22,702 nucleotides of DNA from a virus: the IMG/VR virus record IMGVR_UViG_3300045973_000114, positions 1 through 22,702 of that record; one strand, written 5' to 3'. Within the stretch, counting starts at the first letter, position 1; each line of letters begins with the position of its first letter. The translations under genes and the position numbers were made by a program. The notes beneath the pieces were generated by a model. It was given only the letters and a program-made list of their open reading frames with translations. It had not been told where the DNA came from and did not search any database. Below, one piece after another: positions 6,797 to 22,702 of the stretch.

Positions 6797-6890
6797 ATAA
6801 TAAATATTGGCTAACCGTAAAAAAATTACCGGTCAATATCTTGTTTTATTCTGTTTTCTAAATATATATAAAATATACCACAAGAAAAAG

Positions 6891-7457
6891 ATGTCAGAGA
6901 AAATATTATTTAAAATAGGTTATTATGAAATATATGAAGAAAAAACCCCCTTGGGGGTTATGTTCGTGGCAGATAGTGGAAAGACGTTATATATTAAACG
7001 ATTTAACAAGATAATTTTAAATCCATACCGGGACATAAAAAAATTCAAGAAGGTTGAAGACGCTAAATTATATGCAAAAAAGAAAATTAAAACTAGTTTA
7101 AAGAAAAAAGAAAAGGTTCTTGCCAAGTTACCAAAATCCTTATATTTGATTTTGATGAAAGAGACTGCGTCCGGGAAGACATTTGTTAAAGTTGGAATTA
7201 CATCCAAACGATTTATAATGAGGAGATTCAGTAAGGATTATGGATATGAGGGGTATGTTCTTGAGACGATATTAAGAAGAATTGATAGTCCCAACGCTGA
7301 GAAGTTAGAATCGGAGATTAAAGATACATTAAATAAAAAAAGGACTGCGAAATACAGACCTCTTTTAGAAAGTTTTTCAGGATATTCAGAATGTTATGAT
7401 TACATCAATTTAGATTACATCATAAAGACATTTGACCAAATCAGTAGTAAGGGTTAA
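6891..7457 (+). CDS. GIY-YIG-superfamily nuclease (T5orf172/MUG113-like)
   Basis: With the ATG at 6891 this is a 188-residue protein. The N-terminal 80 residues are basic and may bind DNA. The C-terminal part reads LYLILMKETASGKTFVKVGITS at about 84-105, then RF, a Glu in EKLESEI at about 137-143, and a final FSGYSECYDY. That order matches the T5orf172/MUG113 branch of GIY-YIG nucleases, where K-V-G-I-T-S replaces the YIG strand. A longer reading from a TTG at 6807 adds 28 hydrophobic and basic residues. I reject it because the ATG has an A-rich upstream sequence typical of Bacteroidota starts. The stop codon is directly adjacent to that of the next minus-strand gene. A perfect CCCCC/GGGGG hairpin lies inside the coding region at 6944-6959. 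Confidence 0.72.
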   Translation: MSEKILFKIGYYEIYEEKTPLGVMFVADSGKTLYIKRFNKIILNPYRDIKKFKKVEDAKLYAKKKIKTSLKKKEKVLAKLPKSLYLILMKETASGKTFVKVGITSKRFIMRRFSKDYGYEGYVLETILRRIDSPNAEKLESEIKDTLNKKRTAKYRPLLESFSGYSECYDYINLDYIIKTFDQISSKG

Positions 7458-8716: not shown

Positions 8717-8746
8717 AAAAAAAGAGAACAATTTACTTATTGTTCT
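8717..8746 (-). terminator. Rho-independent terminator of the GIY-YIG homing gene
   Basis: On the minus strand AGAACAA (8746-8740) pairs with TTGTTCT (8731-8725) around an eight-base loop, followed by a T run (8723-8717). The stem overlaps the last codons of the GIY-YIG gene, so the gene carries its own terminator. Confidence 0.8.
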
Positions 8747-9387
8747 AAGAATTTATATAATTTATCATTAATTGGCTTTGATTGATGGATATATCTACAT
8801 ACTGTTGATTTATTAACGCCGATTTCTTCTGAACATTCTTTTATTGTATTCCATGTTATATTATCCTCTACTCGAATAACTTTTCTACTCATTCCATGTG
8901 TTCTATGTTTTAACCCTTCTTGATATTTTTTTGATTCTTTTATTCTAGTTTTATGAACAATTTTCTCTTCTTCAGTAAAAGGATGACGTGTCTTTCTATT
9001 ATTAAACGTATATCCTAATTTTTTCATATTAATTCCTTTATTCCATGGAACACTACCAATTTTTGCCCCTTGGTTTTTCTTATCTTCAATAGATTTCATA
9101 CTAATAGTGTCACCACCATGTGTCATATTATATCCACATTTAAATGAGTTAAATTTTTCAATATAATATATCTCTAGGTTATTTAATTCATCAATGTTAT
9201 AACATTCAACTAATTCCTCCCAAATAAAAAATACAACACCATATTTTCGTATAGCGTTGTAAAATTTAGTTTTCACATTTAATCTAATTGATTTTAGATG
9301 TGATTTCTTACGTTCGTCTAACGATTTTGTCGTTTTTCCAACATAAATTTTTCCATTAATGGTATTTGTGACTTTGTAAATTATCAT
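8737..9387 (-). CDS. GIY-YIG homing endonuclease with NUMOD-type DNA-binding tail
   Basis: This 216-residue protein is a typical free-standing phage homing endonuclease. The GIY-YIG domain fills residues 1-92: IYKVTNTINGKIYVGKT at 3-19, Arg26 in DERKKSH, Glu72 in LEIYYIE, and GYNMTHGGD at 85-93. WNKG at about 115-118 resembles the NUMOD3 linker. Residues about 170-206 (VIRVEDN, then a helix-turn-helix ending VCRYIH) look like NUMOD1, which reads DNA sequence. It has its own upstream box and its own terminator, so it is a self-contained inserted unit between the DUF1599-like gene and the 124-residue gene. Whether it cuts a neighbouring homing site cannot be told from here. Confidence 0.88.
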   Translation of the reverse strand: MIIYKVTNTINGKIYVGKTTKSLDERKKSHLKSIRLNVKTKFYNAIRKYGVVFFIWEELVECYNIDELNNLEIYYIEKFNSFKCGYNMTHGGDTISMKSIEDKKNQGAKIGSVPWNKGINMKKLGYTFNNRKTRHPFTEEEKIVHKTRIKESKKYQEGLKHRTHGMSRKVIRVEDNITWNTIKECSEEIGVNKSTVCRYIHQSKPINDKLYKFLEQ

Positions 9388-10900: not shown

Positions 10901-12175
10901 ATGAAAAAGGGAAAAATATTCGTACAAATAGCAAGTTACCGTGACCCTCAATTATCTCACACTATCCGAGATTGTATTGAAAAGTCCAAATACCCAAATA
11001 ATTTAGTCTTTTCAGTTGCTTGGCAACATTCAATTGATGACGAATGGGATTATGATTTATACGAATTCCGAGGAGATTCCCGTATTCAACTTATTGACAT
11101 CGACTATCGAGATGCTAAAGGTGCTTGTTGGGCAAGAAATTTACTACAACAAAAATACAATGAGGAAGAATACACTCTTCAAATTGATTCACATACCAGA
11201 TTTTTACCAAATTGGGATAACGAATTAATTAAAATGTACAAAGGGTTACAGAAAAAAGGTGTTAAAAAACCATTATTAACTGCATACGCACCATCATTCG
11301 AACCAACGAATGATCCGGAAGGTAGAGTTAATGTTCCATGGAAAATGAACTTCGACCGTTTTACCCCGGAGGGGTTTGTATTTACTATGCCCGCATCAAT
11401 TGACAATTTTAAAGAATTAAAAGAACCAGTTCATGCTAGATTTTATTCGGCACATTTTGCGTTCACAACCGGTGATTTTGTGAAAGAAGTACCTCATGAT
11501 CCAGAATTTTATTTCCATGGTGAAGAAAATTCAATTGCTACCCGAGCATTTACATGGGGATATGATTTATATCACCCGCACAAAGTAATCTTATGGCATG
11601 AATATACCCGGAATGACAAAATCAAACAATGGGATGACGATCCACAATGGGTAGCACGAAATTCGGCATCACATAAAAAATGTAGACAACTATTTGGTAT
11701 GGATGGTGAAGTCCAAGCAACCACATTTGGTAAATATGGTTTTGGAACGATAAGAACGTTAGATGATTATGAACGTTACGCCGGAATTTCATTTAAGTAT
11801 CGTGGTGTACAAAAGTACACAAGTGATAATAATTTAGCCCCGAACCCGGAGATTAAAGATCCTGAAGAATATAGAAATTCATTCCATTCCTTATTTAAAC
11901 ATTGTATTGATTTATATGCATCTAATTTTATTGAACCGGATTATGACTTCTGGGTTGTATCGTTCGAAGAATTGGATGGAACAGTTGTGTATCGACAAGA
12001 TGCTGACGCTGAAGAAGTGAAACGTTTAATTGCCAGTTCAAAAAGTGACAGTTGGATAAGATTGTGGAGAGAATATACCGGTAGGATGCCGGATAAATGG
12101 GTAGTATGGCCACACTCCGTATCAAAAGGATGGTGTGAAAGAGTTGAAACAATATTAAACCAAACAATTAGTTAA
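10901..12175 (+). CDS. GT60-like (GlcNAc-type) glycosyltransferase, copy 1
   Basis: This 424-residue protein is a probable GT-A glycosyltransferase of the GlcNAc family (Pfam PF11397, CAZy GT60). The founder enzyme of that family adds GlcNAc to hydroxyproline of Skp1 in Dictyostelium. The family start IFVQIASYRDPQL is at about 6-18. A donor-site strand and conserved arginine sit in GACWARN at 74-80. QIDSHTRF at about 94-101 is the metal/donor motif in place of DxD. Further blocks are YAPSFEPTNDP, the acceptor-side HFAFTTGDF, and EENSIATRAFTWGYDLYHPH with WHEYTR. A C-terminal extension ends in GWCERVE. It is paralogous to the next gene and the first gene of a tightly packed plus-strand operon. 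The acceptor here is unknown. Confidence 0.85.
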   Translation: MKKGKIFVQIASYRDPQLSHTIRDCIEKSKYPNNLVFSVAWQHSIDDEWDYDLYEFRGDSRIQLIDIDYRDAKGACWARNLLQQKYNEEEYTLQIDSHTRFLPNWDNELIKMYKGLQKKGVKKPLLTAYAPSFEPTNDPEGRVNVPWKMNFDRFTPEGFVFTMPASIDNFKELKEPVHARFYSAHFAFTTGDFVKEVPHDPEFYFHGEENSIATRAFTWGYDLYHPHKVILWHEYTRNDKIKQWDDDPQWVARNSASHKKCRQLFGMDGEVQATTFGKYGFGTIRTLDDYERYAGISFKYRGVQKYTSDNNLAPNPEIKDPEEYRNSFHSLFKHCIDLYASNFIEPDYDFWVVSFEELDGTVVYRQDADAEEVKRLIASSKSDSWIRLWREYTGRMPDKWVVWPHSVSKGWCERVETILNQTIS

Positions 12176-13483
12176 ATGGTAAAAAAGAAAATAGTAAAAA
12201 AAGAAAGACGGGAAGAACGAATTTTAGTACATTTACCCGCATATCGCGAGCCAGAATTAGTACCAACCATTAAAAGTGCCATGGAAAATGCTGAGTATCC
12301 GGAAAGATTAGTATTTGGTATTTGTAGACAATATAATCCAGAGGATAAATTTGATGACCTTAGTGAGTTTGAAAATGATCCAAGAATTAAAGTATTTAAT
12401 ATGTTGTATACCGAAGCAAAAGGTTTACCATATGCCCGGGCAATTATTAATGAAAAAATATTAACGGATGAAGAATTCGTTTTACAATTAGATTCTCACC
12501 ATAGGTTTGATAAAAATTGGGATTCAACATTAATTAATTGGTATTACGATTTGAAAGACGAGGGATATAATCCATTAATTTGTGGGTATTTACCGTATTA
12601 CGATCCGTATAACGATCCGGAAAAACGAGTATTAGAACCTTGGTTATCAGAAGCCGCAAGTTTTTATCCACACGGAACAATTTTTATTCGTCCAACCGGA
12701 ATTCCAAATTGGAGAGAATTAACAAAACCTTTTCCTGCAAGATTTATTTCCGGACATTTCTGCTTCGGCCCGAATAAATGGGCTAAGGATGTTAGACATG
12801 ATCCAGACATTTATTTTAGTGGCGAAGAACTCAACCTAACCATTAGATCATTTACACACGGATATGACCTATTTCATCCCCACAGACCGATTATTTGGCA
12901 CGCAACCATGAGAGTTGAACGTAGTGGCATGTTAGTGTGGGATGACCAAAGTAAACGTGGTGATGACATGTGGTGGAGACAACAAGATATCGGAAGATCA
13001 AAAATAAGACAATTATTAAGAACTGAAGATAATGGATTTGATTTAACCGGTTATGATATTGGTACTGTAAGAACAATCCGGGACTATGAAAAATATGCCG
13101 GTATCCACTTTAAGAAAAAATCATTTCAAAAATATACAAAAGAAAACAAATTTCCACCAAATCCAGTAATTGAAGATGAAATTGAATGGGAAAACTCATT
13201 TATGTTTTCATTTTATCATTTAGTCACAGTAACCCGGGAAAATTTACCCGGAACCGATTATTCAAGTATATTGGTTGCATTTGATGATGAAAACGGTAAT
13301 GGTATAAATAGTAGGAGTATAACCGGAATACAATTGGAGAACTTTTTGAAAGATGGAACTCCGATTCATTATGAAGAAATGTTCATGACCGATGTTCGTC
13401 CAACTAGATTAGTATTTTGGGGTTATAGTGACATAAGAGGTTGGGCTGAAAGGTTTGAAATTCAAATACAATACGTAGACTAA
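12176..13483 (+). CDS. GT60-like (GlcNAc-type) glycosyltransferase, copy 2
   Basis: This 435-residue protein is a tandem paralogue of the gene before it. PAYREPEL at 21-28, QLDSHHRF at 104-111, GYLPYYDPYNDP, HFCFGPNKW, and EELNLTIRSFTHGYDLFHPH with WHATMR match the first copy block by block. The shared C-terminal part also matches, with GTVRTIRDYEKYAGI and a final GWAERFE. Its ATG directly follows the stop codon of copy 1, so translation is probably coupled. The N-terminus is unusually basic (VKKKIVKKERREER). The copies are clearly diverged, which points to different acceptors or successive steps rather than redundancy. The activity is predicted from the family only. Confidence 0.85.
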   Translation: MVKKKIVKKERREERILVHLPAYREPELVPTIKSAMENAEYPERLVFGICRQYNPEDKFDDLSEFENDPRIKVFNMLYTEAKGLPYARAIINEKILTDEEFVLQLDSHHRFDKNWDSTLINWYYDLKDEGYNPLICGYLPYYDPYNDPEKRVLEPWLSEAASFYPHGTIFIRPTGIPNWRELTKPFPARFISGHFCFGPNKWAKDVRHDPDIYFSGEELNLTIRSFTHGYDLFHPHRPIIWHATMRVERSGMLVWDDQSKRGDDMWWRQQDIGRSKIRQLLRTEDNGFDLTGYDIGTVRTIRDYEKYAGIHFKKKSFQKYTKENKFPPNPVIEDEIEWENSFMFSFYHLVTVTRENLPGTDYSSILVAFDDENGNGINSRSITGIQLENFLKDGTPIHYEEMFMTDVRPTRLVFWGYSDIRGWAERFEIQIQYVD

Positions 13484-13484
13484 T

Positions 13485-14447
13485 ATGGACAAAAAATTAT
13501 TATTAGTACATTTTGTTGTCGGGCCAACTTATAAGGATAGAATGATTTACAATTTACTAACATATCCTTCTTATAGTTTTTTTGATGTATTAATTTTAAC
13601 CAACGACGTTGAATATTTTTCATCAATATCACATATGATAAATGTTTTTGTTGTTGATATTGACGAGGTTAGAAAAGATTATCCATGGTCTATTGATTTA
13701 GAAACCGTACCGAAAGAAAAAATTAGTGAAGAACTCTATGCAAAAGAAATGACATCATCATGGGTGAAAGTACCGACATTAATGGAAAGGTTCGCATTTA
13801 TATGGAAAAACGCCCAAAATTATGATGGATTTCTTTTTCTAAATAGTGACGTTATTCCCGTTATGAATGAAACTCATTATGAGAAAATTTTAGACTATTT
13901 CGTGAAACCAATATCCATAAAGGGATATGAAGATAAAATAATTTTTATTCCAAGTGGAGGTGTAAATGGCGACGTTAAACTACCTAATTTAGAAGAAGAT
14001 ACACTGGAAATAAATAATCGATATAAAATAACGGATAAGCCATTAGATTTTCGGGCATTTATTCATAATGACGGTAATTTTAGAACATTTAAATTTCCTG
14101 ATAAATCAAAAATAAAACCATTTTTTGACATATTAAATACAATTGTATATGAAGTTAAAGTTGCAAAACGATTACCAAGATTAGGAGTTCACACAATATG
14201 GGATCTCCATTCCGAACAGATAGTTACAATTGCATTAAATTTAAGTGGCGCTGTTGGCTTACCTATGTCACCGTTCTCAGGAATTGAAGCCGGTGATGTT
14301 TTTAGACTTGAATCATATCCTGAAGATAAATTTTGGTTATCAGATATTATGACCCCATCAAACATAAGTAAACAGGACTTTATAGAAAAAAATAGTATCA
14401 AATTAAATGAATATTATCAAAATAATTTTCCATATAAAAACAAATGA
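13485..14447 (+). CDS. GT-A-like glycosyltransferase
   Basis: This is a 320-residue protein. LLLVHFVVG at the N-terminus starts a Rossmann-like nucleotide-sugar fold. A strand with FLFLNSDVIP at about 116-125 looks like the metal-binding DxD-type motif, and IIFIPSGGVNGD follows. Later HTIWDLHSEQI could supply donor or metal contacts. The layout suggests a GT-A enzyme, but I cannot assign a CAZy family. It starts one base after the previous stop codon, and its own stop lies within a heptamer repeat shared with the next gene's start. There is no signal peptide or membrane span, so it is a cytoplasmic enzyme like the others in this operon. Confidence 0.65.
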   Translation: MDKKLLLVHFVVGPTYKDRMIYNLLTYPSYSFFDVLILTNDVEYFSSISHMINVFVVDIDEVRKDYPWSIDLETVPKEKISEELYAKEMTSSWVKVPTLMERFAFIWKNAQNYDGFLFLNSDVIPVMNETHYEKILDYFVKPISIKGYEDKIIFIPSGGVNGDVKLPNLEEDTLEINNRYKITDKPLDFRAFIHNDGNFRTFKFPDKSKIKPFFDILNTIVYEVKVAKRLPRLGVHTIWDLHSEQIVTIALNLSGAVGLPMSPFSGIEAGDVFRLESYPEDKFWLSDIMTPSNISKQDFIEKNSIKLNEYYQNNFPYKNK

Positions 14448-14461
14448 CAAATGACAAATGA
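14441..14461 (+). repeat. CAAATGA heptamer repeat x3 at a gene junction
   Basis: Three perfect copies of CAAATGA lie end to end. Copy 1 holds the TGA stop of the upstream glycosyltransferase. Copy 2 holds the ATG of the FkbM gene at 14451. The ATGs of copies 1 and 3 lead to short dead-end frames. A unit of seven bases is not a multiple of three. Confidence 0.9.
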
Positions 14462-15161
14462 CTTTTTAAAATTATTAAAGCCACAAAACGTATTTCTCAC
14501 TAAGAAAAGAATCGGCCCGCCGGAAGATGGTGGATATGTGATGCCAGAATTCGTATTAGAAAACTGTTCCGCCCTGTTTACTTATGGCGTTGGATATGAC
14601 GAACGATATGAAGCTGAATTTTGTAAACTTTACAATAAACCTGCATACCTTTTTGATCATACGATTGGTCGTGAACCTTGGTCGGGTAACGGAATGACGT
14701 TTAAACCCGAGGGATTAGGTTATGGCGAAAACTGTAAAGAAGTGTTTGAACATTATACTGAACTTGGTATTACCGGTGATATCTTCTTGAAGATTGATGT
14801 TGAAGGATACGAATATGAGTATTTCACAAAAAGTGATACCTCAAAATTAGGTGATTATGTAATGGGTCTCAGTTTAGAAGTACATTGGTTTGAACACGGT
14901 ACTAACCGGGAAAACCTAGAAAAGATCTTATTAAATCTTAGTGAACATTTCATTCTTTGTCATGTACACGCAAACAATTGGGGATATATCCACAATTTTG
15001 ACGGGGTTGATGTACCGATTGTTCTTGAACTTTCATTTATTAACAGAAAATACGTGGATGCTTACGAACCGGACAATCAAGATTACCCAATCGAAGGTTT
15101 AGATATTCCAAATAATCCTAATGCTCCGGATTATCCGTTGACATTTTTAAAAACGTTATAA
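14451..15161 (+). CDS. FkbM-family methyltransferase
   Basis: This 236-residue protein is a probable SAM-dependent O-methyltransferase of the FkbM type, a family that often methylates sugars. RIGPPEDGGYVMPE at about 20-33 is the usual entry motif. LFTYGVGYDERYE at about 42-54 holds the SAM-binding turn, and IFLKIDVEGYEYEYF at about 111-125 is the family's K-x-D-x-EG-x-E signature. LSLEVHWFEH follows. The C-terminal part ends in a Pro/Asp-rich stretch. The start is at the second of three ATGs in the CAAATGA repeat, the only one that opens the frame. Within this operon it probably caps or decorates a glycan. Confidence 0.85.
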   Translation: MTNDFLKLLKPQNVFLTKKRIGPPEDGGYVMPEFVLENCSALFTYGVGYDERYEAEFCKLYNKPAYLFDHTIGREPWSGNGMTFKPEGLGYGENCKEVFEHYTELGITGDIFLKIDVEGYEYEYFTKSDTSKLGDYVMGLSLEVHWFEHGTNRENLEKILLNLSEHFILCHVHANNWGYIHNFDGVDVPIVLELSFINRKYVDAYEPDNQDYPIEGLDIPNNPNAPDYPLTFLKTL

Positions 15162-15164
15162 TAA

Positions 15165-16028
15165 ATGGTTATCGATAGAAGCGACGATATTACAAAGGAA
15201 TTTTATAACTTTAAAGCGGTACATGGTCATGCAGGTATTGCATTTTTAACCGAAAATAAATTTGACCATGTACCTAACATTTCGAAAGATATTCGAGTTG
15301 TTACAATATCAAATAATCTATTTCATAGTCCATTTATAAAACCATATCTTGACAATCCGGATAAACTTAATTTCACTCCGATCATTCTTGATAAACCAAG
15401 TTTAAGGTGTGGAATTGATTTAATTGAACCATTATATGAATACATTGAAAACATCAAAGAAAAATATACATTATATATTGATGCCTATGATACCGTATTA
15501 ATGAGTGATATTGACGATCCACAAGGGATGTTGGACATGTATGATTGTAAATTATTATTCAATGCTGAAGATGGTTACGGGTTTCCGGATCATGGTTGTG
15601 TTGATAAATCATATGTAAAAAAATATGCCGAATTTCATAATTGCGACGAACACATTTATTACGTAAAAAATAGAGATTTAGTATCAAAAATTAATACCGA
15701 AAATTTACAAAAACGTATTCAATGTTTTCCACTTACAAGATCTTTAAACTCGGGATTATACTTAGGGGAAACTGAGTATTTAAAGGAGATTTTGACAATT
15801 ATGATGCAATATATGTATGACGATCCCACTAAGGGTTATCCATTTGGCGAAATCGAAAATCAAAAACTTTGGCAGTATTTACAAAGTATTTGTGAAAATG
15901 AAGAAATACAAATTGACTACATGAATTTATACTTTTTATGGAATCACGATCATAAATTTACATACCCGGTTGATCATTGGGAACACTTCAATTATTTTAA
16001 TAAATTACAAACAATAAAAACCAAATAA
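15165..16028 (+). CDS. PLOD-like glycosyltransferase (procollagen galactosyl/glucosyltransferase type)
   Basis: This 287-residue protein resembles the glycosyltransferase domain of PLOD/LH3-type and GT25-related enzymes, which in animals and mimivirus glycosylate hydroxylysine of collagen-like proteins. YTLYIDAYDTVLMSD at about 101-115 contains the D-x-YD metal/donor motif. LLFNAEDGYGFPD at about 130-142 matches the family's 'F-x-AE-x-x-x-W/F-PD' block. RSLNSGLYLGE at about 192-202 matches 'LNSG-x-x-G'. A late LWNHDHKF with aromatic neighbours would sit near the acceptor. No hydroxylase domain is attached, unlike animal LH3. The neighbours are glycan enzymes and the gene spacing is three bases. 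The acceptor in this phage is unknown. Confidence 0.75.
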   Translation: MVIDRSDDITKEFYNFKAVHGHAGIAFLTENKFDHVPNISKDIRVVTISNNLFHSPFIKPYLDNPDKLNFTPIILDKPSLRCGIDLIEPLYEYIENIKEKYTLYIDAYDTVLMSDIDDPQGMLDMYDCKLLFNAEDGYGFPDHGCVDKSYVKKYAEFHNCDEHIYYVKNRDLVSKINTENLQKRIQCFPLTRSLNSGLYLGETEYLKEILTIMMQYMYDDPTKGYPFGEIENQKLWQYLQSICENEEIQIDYMNLYFLWNHDHKFTYPVDHWEHFNYFNKLQTIKTK

Positions 16029-16029
16029 A

Positions 16030-16851
16030 ATGTCAAAAACAATAGTTACTTTAACTACAATTCCATCAAGATTAACCGAATCATACGGCGATGATTTCAG
16101 ATCGTGTATTAAATCTCTTTTAGATCAATCCGTTACTGATTATGAGTTGAATATGAATATTCCGTATTTCTTGAAAACAACCGGGGAGGAATATATATTA
16201 CCGGAATCATTAATTAAACTGGAAAGTGAAACCGAAAATTTCACTATTTTTAGAACAGAAGATTACGGCCCGGGGACTAAACTCATCCCAACCGTAGAAA
16301 GATCAACCGATCCCGAGGATATTATCATTGTTGTTGACGATGATTTAGTCTACCACCATGATTTAGTTATGGTACAAAGAGAAAATCAAACCAAATGGCT
16401 TGAATCAATTGTCGGTTATGACGGATTAAGATCCAAAGATAACCTCTTCGGTGATGTGCGTGACTACTTTTTTAGTTCTAATTATCGAACAAGTAGAGTG
16501 GATATTCTTCAACACTACAAATCTGTATCATATAAACGAAGATATTTTGATGATGATTTCATTCAATTTACCAAAGATTATTTCTCGTGGAGTGATGACC
16601 TTATGATTGCCGCTTATTTCTCAATGAAAAGAAGAGAAAGAATTGCAACATTTCATGAATCTGATAGAAATTTTGTTTCATTGGAAGAATGGCAATTATA
16701 TGGTGGTGTATTTTCATTCCCGGTTTTAAGACACACTCAGCACGACAGTCTTGAAGGTTGTAACCAATTCAGACATTTGAGTATTGACGATAATAGTGGA
16801 GAACTTTTTAAGTTCATAGATCATGGATATGACCCAAAACCAGAAGTATAA
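16030..16851 (+). CDS. GT-A-like glycosyltransferase with DYGPGTKL motif
   Basis: This is a 273-residue protein. The N-terminus (IVTLTTIPSRL at 5-15, then CIKSLLDQ) is that of a GT2-like enzyme. DYGPGTKLIPTVE at about 78-90 is a recognisable signature of a glycosyltransferase group found in phages, bacteria and eukaryotes. VVDDDLVYH at about 101-109 is the DxD metal site. FSWSDDLMIAAYFSMK at about 184-199 corresponds to the acidic acceptor-side helix. No membrane span is seen. It lies one base after the PLOD-like gene and is followed by a 24-base gap before the large fusion protein. The sugar and acceptor cannot be told from sequence. Confidence 0.78.
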   Translation: MSKTIVTLTTIPSRLTESYGDDFRSCIKSLLDQSVTDYELNMNIPYFLKTTGEEYILPESLIKLESETENFTIFRTEDYGPGTKLIPTVERSTDPEDIIIVVDDDLVYHHDLVMVQRENQTKWLESIVGYDGLRSKDNLFGDVRDYFFSSNYRTSRVDILQHYKSVSYKRRYFDDDFIQFTKDYFSWSDDLMIAAYFSMKRRERIATFHESDRNFVSLEEWQLYGGVFSFPVLRHTQHDSLEGCNQFRHLSIDDNSGELFKFIDHGYDPKPEV

Positions 16852-16875: not shown

Positions 16876-19800
16876 ATGAGTTTAAGCGAATTGATTAACA
16901 AATATGGTTCAGATAAAAATATAAGTGGGTACACCGAGTTATATGAAAAATTATTCGACCAAATAAAAAGAAACGTAACCGATATCTTGGAAATAGGTAT
17001 CGGTTCTGTTGACCCCGAAATGCCGAGTAGTTTTTGCGGAATTTATCAATATTTCCCTCATTATATGCCCGGAGCGTCATTACGTGTATGGAGAGATTAT
17101 TTTCCAAATGCACAAGTTTGTGGAATGGATATCGATCCAAAATGTGATTTTATTGAAGATAGAATAACTACCGTAATTTGTAGTTCAATGGATCTCGAAG
17201 CATGTGACAGATTATTAAAATCTTCAACATATGACTTCATTCTTGATGATGGTTTACATACCGGAGAAGCACAATTAAAAACTATTCAAAACCTATTCGA
17301 TAGAGTAAAAACCGGTGGATATTATATCGTTGAAGATTGTGGCGGTACGGCAATTGCTGATTTATTTACCAACCCAGAACGATTTAATGAGTTCAAAAAA
17401 ATTGCAAATGATCACGAATATTTTCTTAGAGGAAATGTCGCATTTATTAAAAAGAATTATAGTAAACGTGGGTTGATTGATACTTTCGATGAATTTATCC
17501 GAGATTACAATAAACCACCTGTATATGATGTGACAATACCTGAAGTATCAATACCGGAATATAAAACTATTTTTAGTAAGATCTATGACGATTATGGTTT
17601 TTTTGGGTCACAAGAAAGTCGTTCGGGTGATGGTAGTACCATAAATGCTACAATATTGATCCGGGAAAAAATTAAAGACTTGATCTATGATAAAAATATC
17701 AAAACCGTAGTTGATATCCCCTGTGGGGATTTTAATTGGATGAAAGAAATTGTTTTCAATTTTGATCATTATACCGGTGGTGATATCGTGGAGAAATGTA
17801 TTGAAGAAAATAATGATAAGTATGGAAGTAAACGAATTGAGTTTATTCATTTCGATTTGGTAACCGATAAAATCCCCGCAGGGGATTTATTAATTGTCCG
17901 GGATGTTATTGGTCATTTTCCTCTTGTTGATGGTGAAAAGATCGTTAAGAACATAATAGACAGTAATTGTAAATACTTGTTGGCGACATCGTGGTATGAT
18001 CCAACAAATGAAAATTTTTACCGGGAACATGTAAACGAAAACGTTGACTATGGTAGATTTTACTTTCTAAATTTAAGAAGTGCTCCATTTAACTTACCTG
18101 AACCTGAAATGTATATTGATGAGGGGGTTTTTTATGACGGAGATGGTAAAAGAAAAGGATTAGGATTATGGAATTTGGACAAGGTTCGTCAATGGTTTAC
18201 AGTTCCAACGGTTGAGGAAAAAATAGTTGTGAATAAAATTATTGAACCGGTTGACATGGATGTGTTAGACATTGATATTGTTTCACCGACATTTCATTAT
18301 ATTGGTCAACATAAAACAGGAACACAAGTAGTTCAAATAGGTGCAATGGATGGACTTAGTTATGACGATACCAGAGCATTTCTTGATATGTACAATTGGG
18401 ATGCTTTATTGGTTGAACCGATTCCAGATATGTTTGCTGAGTTGAAAGAAAACTTTAAAACCAGAACCAATTACAAATTTGAACAAAGTGCGGTTACAAC
18501 ACATGACGGTGAAGTGACTATGTTAACAATACCATTAGATGCTATAGTTAAAGAAAATTTACACCCGGGATATAAAGGAATGAGTGCAATATATCCATTG
18601 AAAAACGGATTTGGAAATGAATATCATAGAGATGTTGAAGTAAAGGCCAACCATGGTGTAGATATTTCTGTTCCGGCAATAACTTTTAACACTTTATGTG
18701 AAAAACATGACATTAAAAAAATTGACATTTTAATTTGTGATGCTGAGGGTCATGATTGGATTATTTGTGATCAATTAGATTTCAAAAAATTCCGTCCAAG
18801 TTTTGTGAGATTTGAATACTTTAATTTAACCGATGACGAAAAGGTCTTAATAGTTAAAAAATTAAAGGACAACGGATATGTTGTTTCGATAGTTAACGGA
18901 CAAGATGTTGACGGTGTGGATCAATCATTATGGAATGAAATGGGTATGATTAGCAGTCTTGAAAAAAAGGTTAAAATTGAAGGAGAATTCAATATATTCG
19001 ATTATGTGAATAAATTGACAAAAGAAGAAAAAGAAGAATTGATTACGTTCATAAATAAATCCCCGGAGATTGAGGTATTAAATAAAGATCTTACTATTGT
19101 AACCGGGTTGTGGAATATTAATAGAACCGGAAGAGATTTCAGTCATTACATCGAACATTTTAAGAATTTTTTGGACATTCCAAATTATATGTTCATTTAT
19201 ATTCAAAAGGAATATGAATATTTAGTCTGGGAAAAACGAAGTAAAAAGAATACATGTGTTAAAATTTTTGAACTGGAAGATATTAAAAGTCTTTATGACC
19301 CCTTTTGGAATAAAACACAAGAGATCAGAACCGATCCTACTTGGCTAAATTCAACCGGGGAAAATGGTTGGTTAATTAATAGTCCACAAGCAACATTGGA
19401 ATATTATAATCCTATTGTTCAATCAAAAATGTTTTTACTTAATGATGCAACAATTTGGAATCCATTTAACAATGAATATTTCATTTGGTTAGATGCAGGT
19501 ATTACGAATACCGTTTACAACAAATATTTGACTGAAGAGAGAGCGTTGGATAAAATTATTCCATATCTGAGTAATTTCCTCTTTTTATCATATCCATATG
19601 ATGCTAATGATGAAATTCATGGTTTTAATTTTAAATCAATGAATCGATTAGCCAATGATGTTGTTAAATGTGTATGTAGAGGTGGATTATTTGGCGGTAG
19701 TAAAGAGTCAATAAATCAAGCAAATAGTACTTATTACTCAACCTTAAATGCAACATTAAACAATGGTTTAATGGGAACGGAAGAAAGTGTATTCTCTATT

Positions 19801-20772
19801 ATGGCATACCGTGAACCGAATACGTATAGACGTTATGAACTGGATTATAACGGAATGATTGTTAAGTTTATTGAAGCATTATTACATGATAATGTTACCC
19901 TAGCGCCAATTGATGATAGAAAAATATCCAGACCGGTAACAAATCATGAGATTTCAAAACTTAAAACCAATCTTTATATTTTGACATTTAATTTTCCACA
20001 ACAGGTTCAACATACCATTGATTCAATGGAAAAGACCCCAGAGTGGTTAACTAAACCAAATTTAATCTTATTGGATAATTCAACCAATGAGGAAGCTAAA
20101 CAAGGTAACCGGGAAATCGCCGTAAAATATAAATTCGAATATATTGATCTGGGGGGTAATACCGGAATATGTGGAGGAAGACAGGCGGCGGCTGAACATT
20201 TCGATGCATCCGATGCTGATTTCATGTTTTTCTTTGAAGATGATATGACATCAAACCCACCAGAATTTGAAGGACAATTTTGTAGAAATGGTTTTAGAAA
20301 ATATATTCCAAACTTATATGAACTTGTTCATAAAATCATGTTAAAGGAAAACTTTGATTTTCTTAAATTAACATTCACAGAAGTATTTTTCGATAACGAC
20401 AAACAATGTTGTTGGTATAATGTTCCTCAAGAAGTGAGAACGCAATATTGGCCAGATTACGATAAATTACCGGTAAGTGGTTTAGATCCAAACGTTCCGT
20501 TAACGGAATTCAAAAACATCCGGGTAACTGATGGTTTAGCTTATATAGATGGTGATATTTATTATGCCAATTGGCCAATGATCGTCAGCAAAGAAGGAAA
20601 CAGAAAAATGTTCATTGACACAAAATGGGGTCATCCGTTCGAACAAACTTGGATGTCACATATGTTCCAATTAACCAAACAGGGTAAACTACACCCCGCT
20701 GTCCTTTTAGCCGCACCGATTTGGCACGATAGAATAAAGTATTATCAAAACGATGAAAGAAGGGAAAATTAA
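16876..20772 (+). CDS. Five-domain fusion: three methyltransferases and two glycosyltransferases
   Basis: This is a 1298-residue multi-enzyme protein. Residues about 1-195 are a class I SAM methyltransferase: KYGSDK, then ILEIGIG at 37-43, VCGMDID, DFILDDGLHTGEA and GGYYIVED. Residues about 230-440 are a second, different methyltransferase: GSQESRSGDGST, VVDIPCGDFNWM at 278-289, and LIVRDVIGHF. Residues about 470-700 are FkbM-like: VVQIGAMDG, LLVEPIP, IDILICDAEGHDW. Residues about 735-1003 resemble the HtrL/YibB glycosyltransferase family: LTIVTGLWNINR, FIWLDAGITN, GLFGGSKE. Residues about 1025-1298 are a GT2-like domain: LILLDNST, GGNTGICGGRQ, FFFEDDM at 1118-1124. The reading frame is open throughout and all catalytic motifs look intact. 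Its stop overlaps the start of the TPP-enzyme gene. Confidence 0.85.
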   Translation: MSLSELINKYGSDKNISGYTELYEKLFDQIKRNVTDILEIGIGSVDPEMPSSFCGIYQYFPHYMPGASLRVWRDYFPNAQVCGMDIDPKCDFIEDRITTVICSSMDLEACDRLLKSSTYDFILDDGLHTGEAQLKTIQNLFDRVKTGGYYIVEDCGGTAIADLFTNPERFNEFKKIANDHEYFLRGNVAFIKKNYSKRGLIDTFDEFIRDYNKPPVYDVTIPEVSIPEYKTIFSKIYDDYGFFGSQESRSGDGSTINATILIREKIKDLIYDKNIKTVVDIPCGDFNWMKEIVFNFDHYTGGDIVEKCIEENNDKYGSKRIEFIHFDLVTDKIPAGDLLIVRDVIGHFPLVDGEKIVKNIIDSNCKYLLATSWYDPTNENFYREHVNENVDYGRFYFLNLRSAPFNLPEPEMYIDEGVFYDGDGKRKGLGLWNLDKVRQWFTVPTVEEKIVVNKIIEPVDMDVLDIDIVSPTFHYIGQHKTGTQVVQIGAMDGLSYDDTRAFLDMYNWDALLVEPIPDMFAELKENFKTRTNYKFEQSAVTTHDGEVTMLTIPLDAIVKENLHPGYKGMSAIYPLKNGFGNEYHRDVEVKANHGVDISVPAITFNTLCEKHDIKKIDILICDAEGHDWIICDQLDFKKFRPSFVRFEYFNLTDDEKVLIVKKLKDNGYVVSIVNGQDVDGVDQSLWNEMGMISSLEKKVKIEGEFNIFDYVNKLTKEEKEELITFINKSPEIEVLNKDLTIVTGLWNINRTGRDFSHYIEHFKNFLDIPNYMFIYIQKEYEYLVWEKRSKKNTCVKIFELEDIKSLYDPFWNKTQEIRTDPTWLNSTGENGWLINSPQATLEYYNPIVQSKMFLLNDATIWNPFNNEYFIWLDAGITNTVYNKYLTEERALDKIIPYLSNFLFLSYPYDANDEIHGFNFKSMNRLANDVVKCVCRGGLFGGSKESINQANSTYYSTLNATLNNGLMGTEESVFSIMAYREPNTYRRYELDYNGMIVKFIEALLHDNVTLAPIDDRKISRPVTNHEISKLKTNLYILTFNFPQQVQHTIDSMEKTPEWLTKPNLILLDNSTNEEAKQGNREIAVKYKFEYIDLGGNTGICGGRQAAAEHFDASDADFMFFFEDDMTSNPPEFEGQFCRNGFRKYIPNLYELVHKIMLKENFDFLKLTFTEVFFDNDKQCCWYNVPQEVRTQYWPDYDKLPVSGLDPNVPLTEFKNIRVTDGLAYIDGDIYYANWPMIVSKEGNRKMFIDTKWGHPFEQTWMSHMFQLTKQGKLHPAVLLAAPIWHDRIKYYQNDERREN

Positions 20773-21407
20773 TGGTAACATTAACAAAAGAAGATTTAAT
20801 AAATTTTGAAACAGAGATTGGTGATCTATTTAATTCAGCACAGATTAGATCACCGATTCATCTGTACCACGGAAATGAAGATTTTATGTTTGAATTATTT
20901 AAGGACATAGATATTGAAAACGATTGGGTTTGCGGTACTTGGAGAAGTCATTATCAGGCTCTTTTAAAAGGTATTCCCCCGGAAGAATTGAAAGAACTTA
21001 TTATGAAAGGTAAATCCATGGTATTAAACGTACCGGAGCATAAATTCATATGTAGTTCTATCGTTGGGGGTATTCCCTCAATCGCGGCAGGAATTGCTCT
21101 ATCTATCAAACTACAAGATAAAACTGACAAAGTTTGGTGTTGGGTTGGCGATATGACCGCAGAAACGGGGGCATTTCATGAAGCATATAAATACAGTTTA
21201 AATAATGACCTTCCAATTACGTTTATTGTGGAAGATAATAGAAAATCTGTATGTACACCCACATCAATTGTGTGGGGTAGAGAAACCCCGTATTATTTGA
21301 ATTCCGAATATCAGGGTGGAATTTTAAGACAAAAGAATTTGATATACTACCAATATGTCAACTATAAATATCCCCACGCGGGAGCAGGTAAAAGAGTCCA
21401 ATTTTAA
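20772..21407 (+). CDS. TPP-dependent enzyme, E1-alpha-like (PP domain only)
   Basis: This 211-residue protein matches the diphosphate-binding (PP) domain of E1-alpha/transketolase-type enzymes. IRSPIHLYHGNEDF at 25-38 and GTWRSHYQALLKGI at 55-68 match E1-alpha 'RSHYHALLKG'. The TPP/Mg motif is GDMTAETGAFHEA from 126, with DN at 155-156, about 30 residues later as usual. Typical E1-alpha subunits exceed 320 residues, so this is a minimal domain. It overlaps the previous gene by one base (TAATG) and the next in the same way, so the three are translationally coupled. Its partner is the PYR-domain gene just downstream. The substrate is unknown; transfer of a two-carbon or acyl unit for a special sugar is one possibility. 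Confidence 0.85.
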   Translation: MVTLTKEDLINFETEIGDLFNSAQIRSPIHLYHGNEDFMFELFKDIDIENDWVCGTWRSHYQALLKGIPPEELKELIMKGKSMVLNVPEHKFICSSIVGGIPSIAAGIALSIKLQDKTDKVWCWVGDMTAETGAFHEAYKYSLNNDLPITFIVEDNRKSVCTPTSIVWGRETPYYLNSEYQGGILRQKNLIYYQYVNYKYPHAGAGKRVQF

Positions 21408-21943
21408 TGAAATATTTCGACGAATTAAAACGAGCAATGACTTTGTTAAGCGAACACCCAAAGGTCTTAATAATCGGTCAATCGGTACAATATGAGGGTA
21501 CAGGATTATATGAATCATTAGTCCACGTTGCATCAAATAAAAAGATGGAACTACCGGTTGCTGAATATCTACAATCCGGATTAGCTAATGGTATGGCAAT
21601 TGAAGGTATGATTCCGGTTTCAGTATATCCCAGATGGAATTTTATGCTGATGGGAACCGATCAAATAGTAAATCATTTGGATAAATTCAGAAACATGTCA
21701 GATGGTAAATATAGTCCTAAAGTGATTATACGAGTTGCCGTCGGGGGTGTTAATCTAATTGATCCCCAAGATCAACATAAAGGTAATTTCGCAGACGCAT
21801 TTAGAAGTATGACCAAGAACATTAATATTGTTGAACTACATGAACCAGAAGACATTTTCCCCCAATACGAATTAGCATTAAATAGAACTGATGGAGTTAG
21901 TACTATATTAGTTGAATTTGCTGATTATTCAAGAGAAAAATAA
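21407..21943 (+). CDS. TPP-dependent enzyme, E1-beta-like (PYR domain only)
   Basis: This 178-residue protein matches the pyrimidine-binding (PYR) domain of E1-beta/transketolase enzymes. VLIIGQSVQYEGTGLYES at about 20-37 is followed by MELPVAEYLQSGLANGMAIEG at about 47-67. Glu53 in that stretch corresponds to the glutamate that activates the TPP aminopyrimidine ring. DQIVNHLDKFRNMSDGK and VIIRVAVGG complete the domain. Normal E1-beta subunits have about 320 residues including a C-terminal transketolase domain, which is absent here. With the upstream PP-domain gene it would form one active site at the interface. This is the last gene of the coupled operon; a 20-base gap with a new box follows. 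Confidence 0.85.
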   Translation: MKYFDELKRAMTLLSEHPKVLIIGQSVQYEGTGLYESLVHVASNKKMELPVAEYLQSGLANGMAIEGMIPVSVYPRWNFMLMGTDQIVNHLDKFRNMSDGKYSPKVIIRVAVGGVNLIDPQDQHKGNFADAFRSMTKNINIVELHEPEDIFPQYELALNRTDGVSTILVEFADYSREK

Positions 21944-21963: not shown

Positions 21964-22702
21964 ATGATAGTAAATTTCCATTACGAACAACATTATTATC
22001 CAAGCGAATATTCACATATCGAAATATTTGATAGATTATTTGATGCATTTGTATTAATGTACCCAACAGTTGAATTCCGAAAAGTCGATTACCGAAGAAA
22101 AGATCCTGTTGATACAGAACCTATAGAAGTATTTTCAAAATTTAAACATAACTACGGTTGTTTTAATTTTCTTATTATTGAAAACGACGAAAATAAAAAA
22201 TATTTCATTGTATCACATTGGGACAAACTAATTCAAATTACCGGAGGCGTAACCGGTAGACCCGGAGATTATGGATATTGGGATCTTGAGAATTGTGTTG
22301 GTATATTTCCGGCAGTAGGAACTCATACCAATGATTTAACTTACGAGCAATGTAGCATTGACTATACTCCATATTCATACATTCCATATCGAATGTCATT
22401 CCTCGAAAATACCGAAAAATTGTACCACGCAAATATACCTAAAATTATTCCAGACAAACCACATATTCGATTTGGTGGTGATTGTGGATACCTATTCAGA
22501 CAATACTTGTGTCTAAACAACGATCAACGATATCATATTCACAACGAACAAATGTCCACTGATGATTTTTATAACGAAATGGCTACATTTGGTGTCATAA
22601 TAGATATTAACTCGGTAGCCGAGATATCTGGAAGAACAACCGATGCCTTCGGACTCGGTGCGGCACTTGTACGTCCTAAACTAGGAATCAAATATCACAA
22701 TC
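21964..22702 (+). CDS. Partial unknown protein, possibly glycan-related
   Basis: The frame opens at ATG 21964 and stays open for 246 codons to the window end, so the C-terminus is missing. The protein begins MIVNFHYEQHYYPSEYSH and is rich in aromatic and His residues. It has alternating strands and helices, a Gly-rich ITGGVTGRPGDYGYW stretch and a late SGRTTDAFGLGAALVRPKLG. No DxD motif or other catalytic signature is clear to me. Position after nine glycan-type genes suggests a related role, but a new TATTTAT box before it hints at separate control. I do not assign a family. Confidence 0.6.
   Translation, partial: MIVNFHYEQHYYPSEYSHIEIFDRLFDAFVLMYPTVEFRKVDYRRKDPVDTEPIEVFSKFKHNYGCFNFLIIENDENKKYFIVSHWDKLIQITGGVTGRPGDYGYWDLENCVGIFPAVGTHTNDLTYEQCSIDYTPYSYIPYRMSFLENTEKLYHANIPKIIPDKPHIRFGGDCGYLFRQYLCLNNDQRYHIHNEQMSTDDFYNEMATFGVIIDINSVAEISGRTTDAFGLGAALVRPKLGIKYHN

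Follow-up and report, generated by a model that had tools for sequence, protein, structure and literature searches.

We analyzed a 22,702-base viral contig (IMG/VR record IMGVR_UViG_3300045973_000114, hereafter the window), an incomplete phage genome to which all window coordinates refer. On its plus strand it encodes two small adjoining proteins related to thiamine pyrophosphate (TPP) enzymes, namely a PP-domain, E1alpha-like subunit of 211 aa (20772..21407) and a PYR-domain, E1beta-like subunit of 178 aa (21407..21943). This pair is probably a minimal, E2-independent ligase of the pyruvate dehydrogenase (PDH) E1 type that puts an acetyl branch on a nucleoside diphosphate (NDP)-3-deoxy-4-ketosugar. 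It is best read as a minimal form related to the PDH-like sugar-branching enzymes AviB1/B2, Pau11/12 and KbDH. The sugar-branching role was assigned because the pair keeps constant company with a deoxysugar dehydratase in phages and bacteria. An earlier reading of this DNA from sequence alone (the sequence-only reading) had proposed that the product of the pair is some unusual building block, a two-carbon-branched sugar being one example. The link to 3-dehydratases and the alternation with YerE-like enzymes described below support this proposal, and we infer the acetyl transfer itself, together with the pyruvate donor, the ketosugar acceptor, an alpha2beta2 assembly and the final sugar.

The PP subunit matched the Pfam family E1_dh with 53 bits (cut-off 22) and the PYR subunit matched Transket_pyr with 27.5 bits (cut-off 27). 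The two domains lie on separate alpha- and beta-type chains, as in PDH E1 and the alphaKADH2 superfamily. On alignment, the TPP motif of PP reads Gly126-Asp127-Met128 ... Glu154-Asp155-Asn156 (codons 21147-21239), that is, GDM...EDN where the canonical form is GDG...N; G126, E154 and N156 were invariant across 50 relatives. His30 of PP (20859..20861) falls opposite mature His63 of human E1alpha in a phmmer alignment with 2ozl_A and was invariant in the same 50 relatives; like Arg58, it coincides in alignment with an active-site residue of E1alpha. In PYR, Glu53 (21563..21565) aligns with the catalytic glutamate of E1beta, and His124 (21776..21778) is a candidate for the E1beta active-site histidine, falling in the HHH stretch of Thermus E1beta. 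Both were invariant in 45 aligned sequences, as were Arg76, His90 and Asp92, which are specific to this family. Because the TPP-binding and catalytic residues are kept, the pair looks, in sequence and model, catalytically complete despite the missing C-terminal domain of E1beta and the missing end of E1alpha.

AlphaFold models, built for PP and PYR as separate single chains from alignments of phage and bacterial relatives, had predicted local distance difference test scores of 92.3 and 92.5, respectively. The PP model matched residues 34-268 of human E1alpha (Z 19.5, root-mean-square deviation (rmsd) 2.6 over 203 residues) and lacks roughly the last 95 residues of that chain; its Z scores were lower for split transketolase (15.1) and DXS (14.8). 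Over its full length, the PYR model aligned with residues 3-179 of the 330-residue human E1beta chain and with residues 4-180 of Thermus E1beta (Z 24.1 for Thermus; Z about 24 and rmsd 1.7 for the E1beta matches). That is, PYR covers a complete PYR domain and stops at its boundary, and the C-terminal transketolase domain of the beta chain is absent. The sequence-only reading had described a TPP motif in PP, a catalytic glutamate in PYR, subunits of about half the normal E1 size and a missing transketolase C-terminal domain; each of these was confirmed, the motif as a variant. Both genes are under purifying selection, with dN of about 0.15 and saturated synonymous sites for PP and dN of about 0.2 vs dS of about 2 for PYR.

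PP relatives were found in 75 other viral contigs, nearly all with a PYR partner of 172-198 aa, usually in the next gene. Of 200 bacterial relatives, the best 80 came from Verrucomicrobia, Nitrospira, Pelagibacteraceae, SAR116, beta- and gammaproteobacteria, cyanobacteria and others, and most of them had a split pair like that of the window, with chains of about 200 and 178 aa. Because relatives mostly carry a pair that is nearly as small as the window's, the minimal pair is a family and not a truncation. The pair always lay in glycan islands. It is not specific to phages, as bacteria carry it too. In the tree, the minimal family grouped with E1 (branch 98/98), apart from the PP domains of transketolase and DXS, with long branches. 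It occupied a single branch (96/94) beside true E1alpha and separate from it, and the window fell inside a phage clade (100/100). Four members (L174, L197, L181 and L186) had very long branches; therefore, only the placement of the whole minimal family was used.

A deeper branch of the minimal family includes single-chain cyanophage proteins of 402 aa. These are annotated as "transketolase central region-containing protein" (P-TIM68, S-SM2; phrog_34187) and share homologous PP and PYR domains with the window pair at 30-41% identity. Unlike the pair, they form one chain, carry a GDG motif and have alcohol dehydrogenase and kinase genes as neighbours in place of DegT. Three such PP-PYR genes with the GDG motif (L077 14986-16194, L078 14983-16191, L073 4622-5806) adjoin a medium-chain dehydrogenase/reductase-type alcohol dehydrogenase and an HldE-like kinase. 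The cyanophage branch probably has another function.

In the window's clade, the neighbour of the pair is a DegT-fold protein. Two neighbours of the phage type scored 478.6 and 432.6 against the NCBIfam RfbH model (cut-off 423), and this type matched 3bcx, the structure of a cytidine diphosphate (CDP)-4-keto-6-deoxyglucose 3-dehydratase, with 369 bits; the bacterial type, shared by a minority of phages, was closest to ColD where tested. Replacement of the pyridoxal phosphate (PLP)-binding lysine by histidine is the mark of RfbH/ColD sugar 3-dehydratases. Histidine stood at this position in 66 of 66 readable phage neighbours and 69 of 74 readable bacterial ones. As a control, eight of these bacterial genomes were examined for further DegT proteins, which had lysine in 22 of 22 readable cases (one was unalignable and three were too short), and the only four histidine copies there were the cassette's own. 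Within the fetched flanks, a His-type neighbour was present at 59/69 phage and 69/80 bacterial loci, and most loci without one were short contigs. In whole-contig searches, DegT was found in all 24 related phage contigs. In the close relative L003, one operon holds RfbH and a gene resembling a 4,6-dehydratase. A marine virus paper lists rfbH simply as a viral metabolic gene.

A TPP enzyme, either the pair or a YerE-like one and rarely both, usually accompanies phage RfbH. The set comprised 80 phage RfbH loci, 16 with the pair within 7 kb and 64 without it. Within the same distance, an acetolactate-synthase-type TPP enzyme was found at none of the 16 loci with the pair and at 35 of the 64 without it (L211, L213, L218 and others). 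JanthE is a YerE-like ligase. The best solved relative of the acetolactate-synthase-type enzyme was JanthE (8rph, 397 bits), whereas acetolactate synthases scored at most 228 bits. At dereplicated RfbH loci with full flanks, the YerE-like enzyme occurred in 0/8 with the pair vs 22/29 without (Fisher p=1.7e-4). When the comparison was widened to 32 distinct pair loci, each flanked by 5 kb or more in both directions, the counts were 6/32 vs 22/29 (p=9e-6). The loci come from one collection, are related and are not fully independent, so that these p-values are only a guide. The position next to RfbH is thus taken by TPP enzymes of two different superfamilies, in most cases by one of them alone, and the pair seems to stand in for YerE-like enzymes there. 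We do not claim strict mutual exclusion, as both were present at 10/69 loci. The RfbH step yields CDP-3,6-dideoxy-4-keto-D-glucose, and it is this sugar that accepts the activated acetaldehyde which YerE takes from pyruvate (PMC12247030). The frequency of YerE/JanthE-like genes at phage RfbH loci suggests that phages often encode branched-sugar synthesis.

In the mechanism that we propose, TPP would be held between PP and PYR and activated by PYR Glu53. A 2-oxo acid, most likely pyruvate, would be decarboxylated, and the bound hydroxyethyl carbanion would add to the C4 ketone of an NDP-3-deoxy-4-ketosugar supplied by the partner RfbH/ColD-type 3-dehydratase. This would yield an NDP-sugar whose tertiary alcohol bears a two-carbon acetyl branch. 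The sugar might then be reduced, becoming yersiniose-like, and serve as a substrate for glycosyltransferases encoded in the phage glycan island.

Several observations weigh against this assignment. The TPP motif of PP has GDM in place of GDG. DegT dehydratase is absent from the genomes of the cyanophage branch, and the bacterial cassettes contain guanosine diphosphate (GDP)-heptose-type genes. The exchange with YerE-like enzymes is not strict, as the 6 of 32 well-flanked pair loci with both enzymes demonstrate, and the loci compared are related. Phage relatives have a short-chain dehydrogenase/reductase gene downstream of the pair, but this gene also turns up at RfbH loci that lack the pair and does not adjoin the pair in the window; being common at such loci, it was dropped as a candidate YerF equivalent. 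Finally, the 22.7-kb window itself contains neither a 3-dehydratase nor a nucleotide-sugar gene. The close relatives L018 and L034 carry a His-type RfbH about 7 and 11 kb upstream of the pair; therefore, its absence from the fragment is not strong evidence against the link, and the window's own case is unproved. The window phage presumably carries the dehydratase outside the fragment.

PDH-like two-subunit enzymes that branch ketosugars are known or proposed from actinobacterial antibiotic pathways. Feeding and knockout data for aldgamycin point to PDH-like acetyl branching of a ketosugar, inactivation of pau11 abolished paulomycins, an acetyl-branching role was proposed for AviB1/B2 and EvdU5/EvdS3, and KbDH-alpha/beta couples pyruvate to ketones in vitro (PMC12247030). 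These alphaKADH2-type enzymes (KbDH-alpha/beta, AviB1/AviB2, Pau11/Pau12, EvdU5/EvdS3) resemble the pair in the E1alpha/E1beta split, the use of TPP, the lack of E2 and the company of deoxysugar genes. However, full-length Pau11/Pau12 have 325/345 aa vs 211/178 aa in the window. In addition, the known enzymes serve antibiotics, whereas pairs of the window type lie in phage or lipopolysaccharide-type cassettes, and the link to an RfbH/ColD dehydratase seen with the minimal pair is not made for alphaKADH2-type enzymes in their papers. YerE and YerE-like lyases (YpYerE, JanthE, ErwE) resemble the pair in the proposed reaction, an acetyl branch on a 3,6-dideoxy-4-ketosugar of the RfbH pathway, but they are single chains of about 575 aa from the acetolactate-synthase/decarboxylase superfamily, whereas the pair consists of two short chains from the E1 superfamily. 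The company of an RfbH-type 3-dehydratase, a trait of YerE-like enzymes, is found in relatives of the pair and not on the window itself. What is new here is that the pair is built from two single domains, that it occurs in a surface-glycan setting in phages and a broad range of bacteria, that it is linked to a His-type 3-dehydratase and that it is exchanged with YerE-like enzymes. We found no paper in a literature search on phage, branched sugar and thiamine. A 2025 review (PMC12247030) reports no structure of any E1-type ketone-accepting enzyme and suggests viruses as a place to look.

Among the alternatives, the one that survives best keeps the acceptor and changes the donor, to a hydroxyacetyl unit as in transketolase or to a functionalised acyl unit of greater length; the branch would then be hydroxylated or longer. 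The YerE-like enzyme ErwE prefers hydroxylated C4-C6 2-oxo acids, transketolases have been proposed as ketosugar branchers in other pathways (both PMC12247030), and the invariant Arg76, His90 and Asp92 of PYR could reflect a different donor or acceptor. We nevertheless consider this unlikely, as fold and tree place both subunits with E1 and not with transketolase. The split-gene transketolase (6yaj/6yak) is likewise two chains divided between PP and PYR, but its beta chain, at 303-311 residues, exceeds a PYR domain in length, and the enzyme matched the PP and PYR models with Z 15.1 and 18.1 vs 19.5 and 24.1 for E1. Moreover, KbDH, the ketone-accepting E1-type enzyme tested so far, is limited to pyruvate (PMC12247030).

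It is quite improbable that the pair is a decarboxylase or acyloin former making a small molecule (an aldehyde or acyl unit) for some other modification, like AzcB/AzcC or ComDE. Small split PP and PYR chains are known from AzcB/AzcC, a TPP-dependent alpha-imino acid decarboxylase (9u8r) whose chain of 166-170 residues matches PYR, and the cyanophage branch has an alcohol dehydrogenase and a kinase as neighbours but no 3-dehydratase. AzcB/AzcC catalyzes another reaction, and its match to PYR (template-modelling score about 0.62, rmsd 4.4) was weaker than that of E1beta (0.86, 2.2). Against this reading stand the strict association of the window's clade with His-type 3-dehydratases and the way the pair and YerE-like enzymes alternate at RfbH loci. 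ComDE structures were not among the matches listed for either model, which does not exclude ComDE.

The unusual GDM motif and small size might indicate an inactive or regulatory remnant, but purifying selection on both genes, catalytic residues invariant in 45-50 relatives and sizes that are equal across phyla make this scarcely credible. The idea of a captured PDH E1 that supports host central metabolism during infection accounts for the E1-like sequence and fold and was rejected as equally far-fetched, since the E1beta C-terminal domain is missing, the branch is separate from true E1alpha, the pair always lies in glycan islands, and searches for which control genomes were positive found the E2 catalytic domain (PF00198) in none of 24 related phage contigs, 44-316 kb in size, and the lipoyl domain (PF00364) in none of 27 records. 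The sequence-only reading had likewise argued against central metabolism, and neither finding that it held could overturn its proposal appeared, the first being clear grouping with host PDH plus loss of TPP contacts and the second an E2/E3 set just outside the window: the pair retains the contacts, and the searches, which covered E2 but not E3, revealed no E2.

Whether the acetyl-branching assignment extends to the whole group seems to us evenly balanced: a widespread, unnamed E1-type family of PP and PYR domains only, present in phages and many bacterial phyla, would make tertiary-alcohol C-branched sugars for surface glycans, would have arisen independently of YerE and would be exchanged with it next to RfbH. 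If so, phages would build rare branched sugars that could be placed on virions or the host surface. The ligase would be an unusually small ketone-accepting thiamine enzyme, with about 390 residues in two single-domain chains, and could be useful for making chiral tertiary alcohols. It would also give a testable function to phrog_34187, a PHROG family without one, and to the cassettes of SAR11, Nitrospira and Verrucomicrobia.

GmhA/HddA/HddC-like and GDP-fucose-synthase-like genes occur in the bacterial cassettes, along with one for a B12 radical-SAM protein. Given this gene content, the acceptor there may differ and be a GDP-heptose derivative. One recurrent arrangement (L137 4320-12060 and similar loci) comprises a B12 radical SAM protein, an HddA-like kinase, the minimal TPP pair, a ColD-like dehydratase, an HddC-like nucleotidyltransferase and an epimerase, hinting at a modified GDP-heptose-type sugar. 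At a Pelagibacteraceae locus (L139 3024-9129), three TPP enzyme sets adjoin one another together with a B12 radical-SAM protein: besides the minimal pair, there are a YerE/acetolactate-synthase-like protein of 566 aa and an E1-like pair of larger size (279 + 305 aa).

In the window, glycosyltransferase and methyltransferase genes lie upstream of the pair on the same strand. The immediate upstream neighbour (16876..20772) encodes a 1298-aa fusion protein in which Pfam and PHROGs identify methyltransferase-like, FkbM methyltransferase, HtrL/YibB and GT2-like domains, and is translationally coupled to the PP gene. The TAATG overlaps that the sequence-only reading had noted were read exactly at both junctions: at 20770..20774, the TAA of the fusion gene (20770-20772) overlaps the ATG of the PP gene at 20772, and at 21405..21409, the TAA of the PP gene (21405-21407) overlaps the ATG of the PYR gene at 21407. 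Further upstream, the glycan genes at 10901..16851 (Pfam, PHROGs) comprise two GlcNAc-type glycosyltransferases (PF11397), an FkbM-like methyltransferase and three further open reading frames (ORFs), one with a weak glycosyltransferase match; the two PF11397 copies stand in tandem at 10901-13483 and both belong to phrog_24687. Downstream, the ORF at 21964-22701, which runs off the contig end, had no family match in Pfam or PHROGs and no relative in viral contigs. On the minus strand, a 474-aa ORF (1560-2984) without a PHROG match contains the Ala/Gly-rich segment AEGGALAGGEATALAT twice. Elsewhere, the contig carries endolysin-type genes (GH19, M23), and T5orf172-domain and GIY-YIG nuclease-like genes lie at 6807-7457 and 8737-9387.

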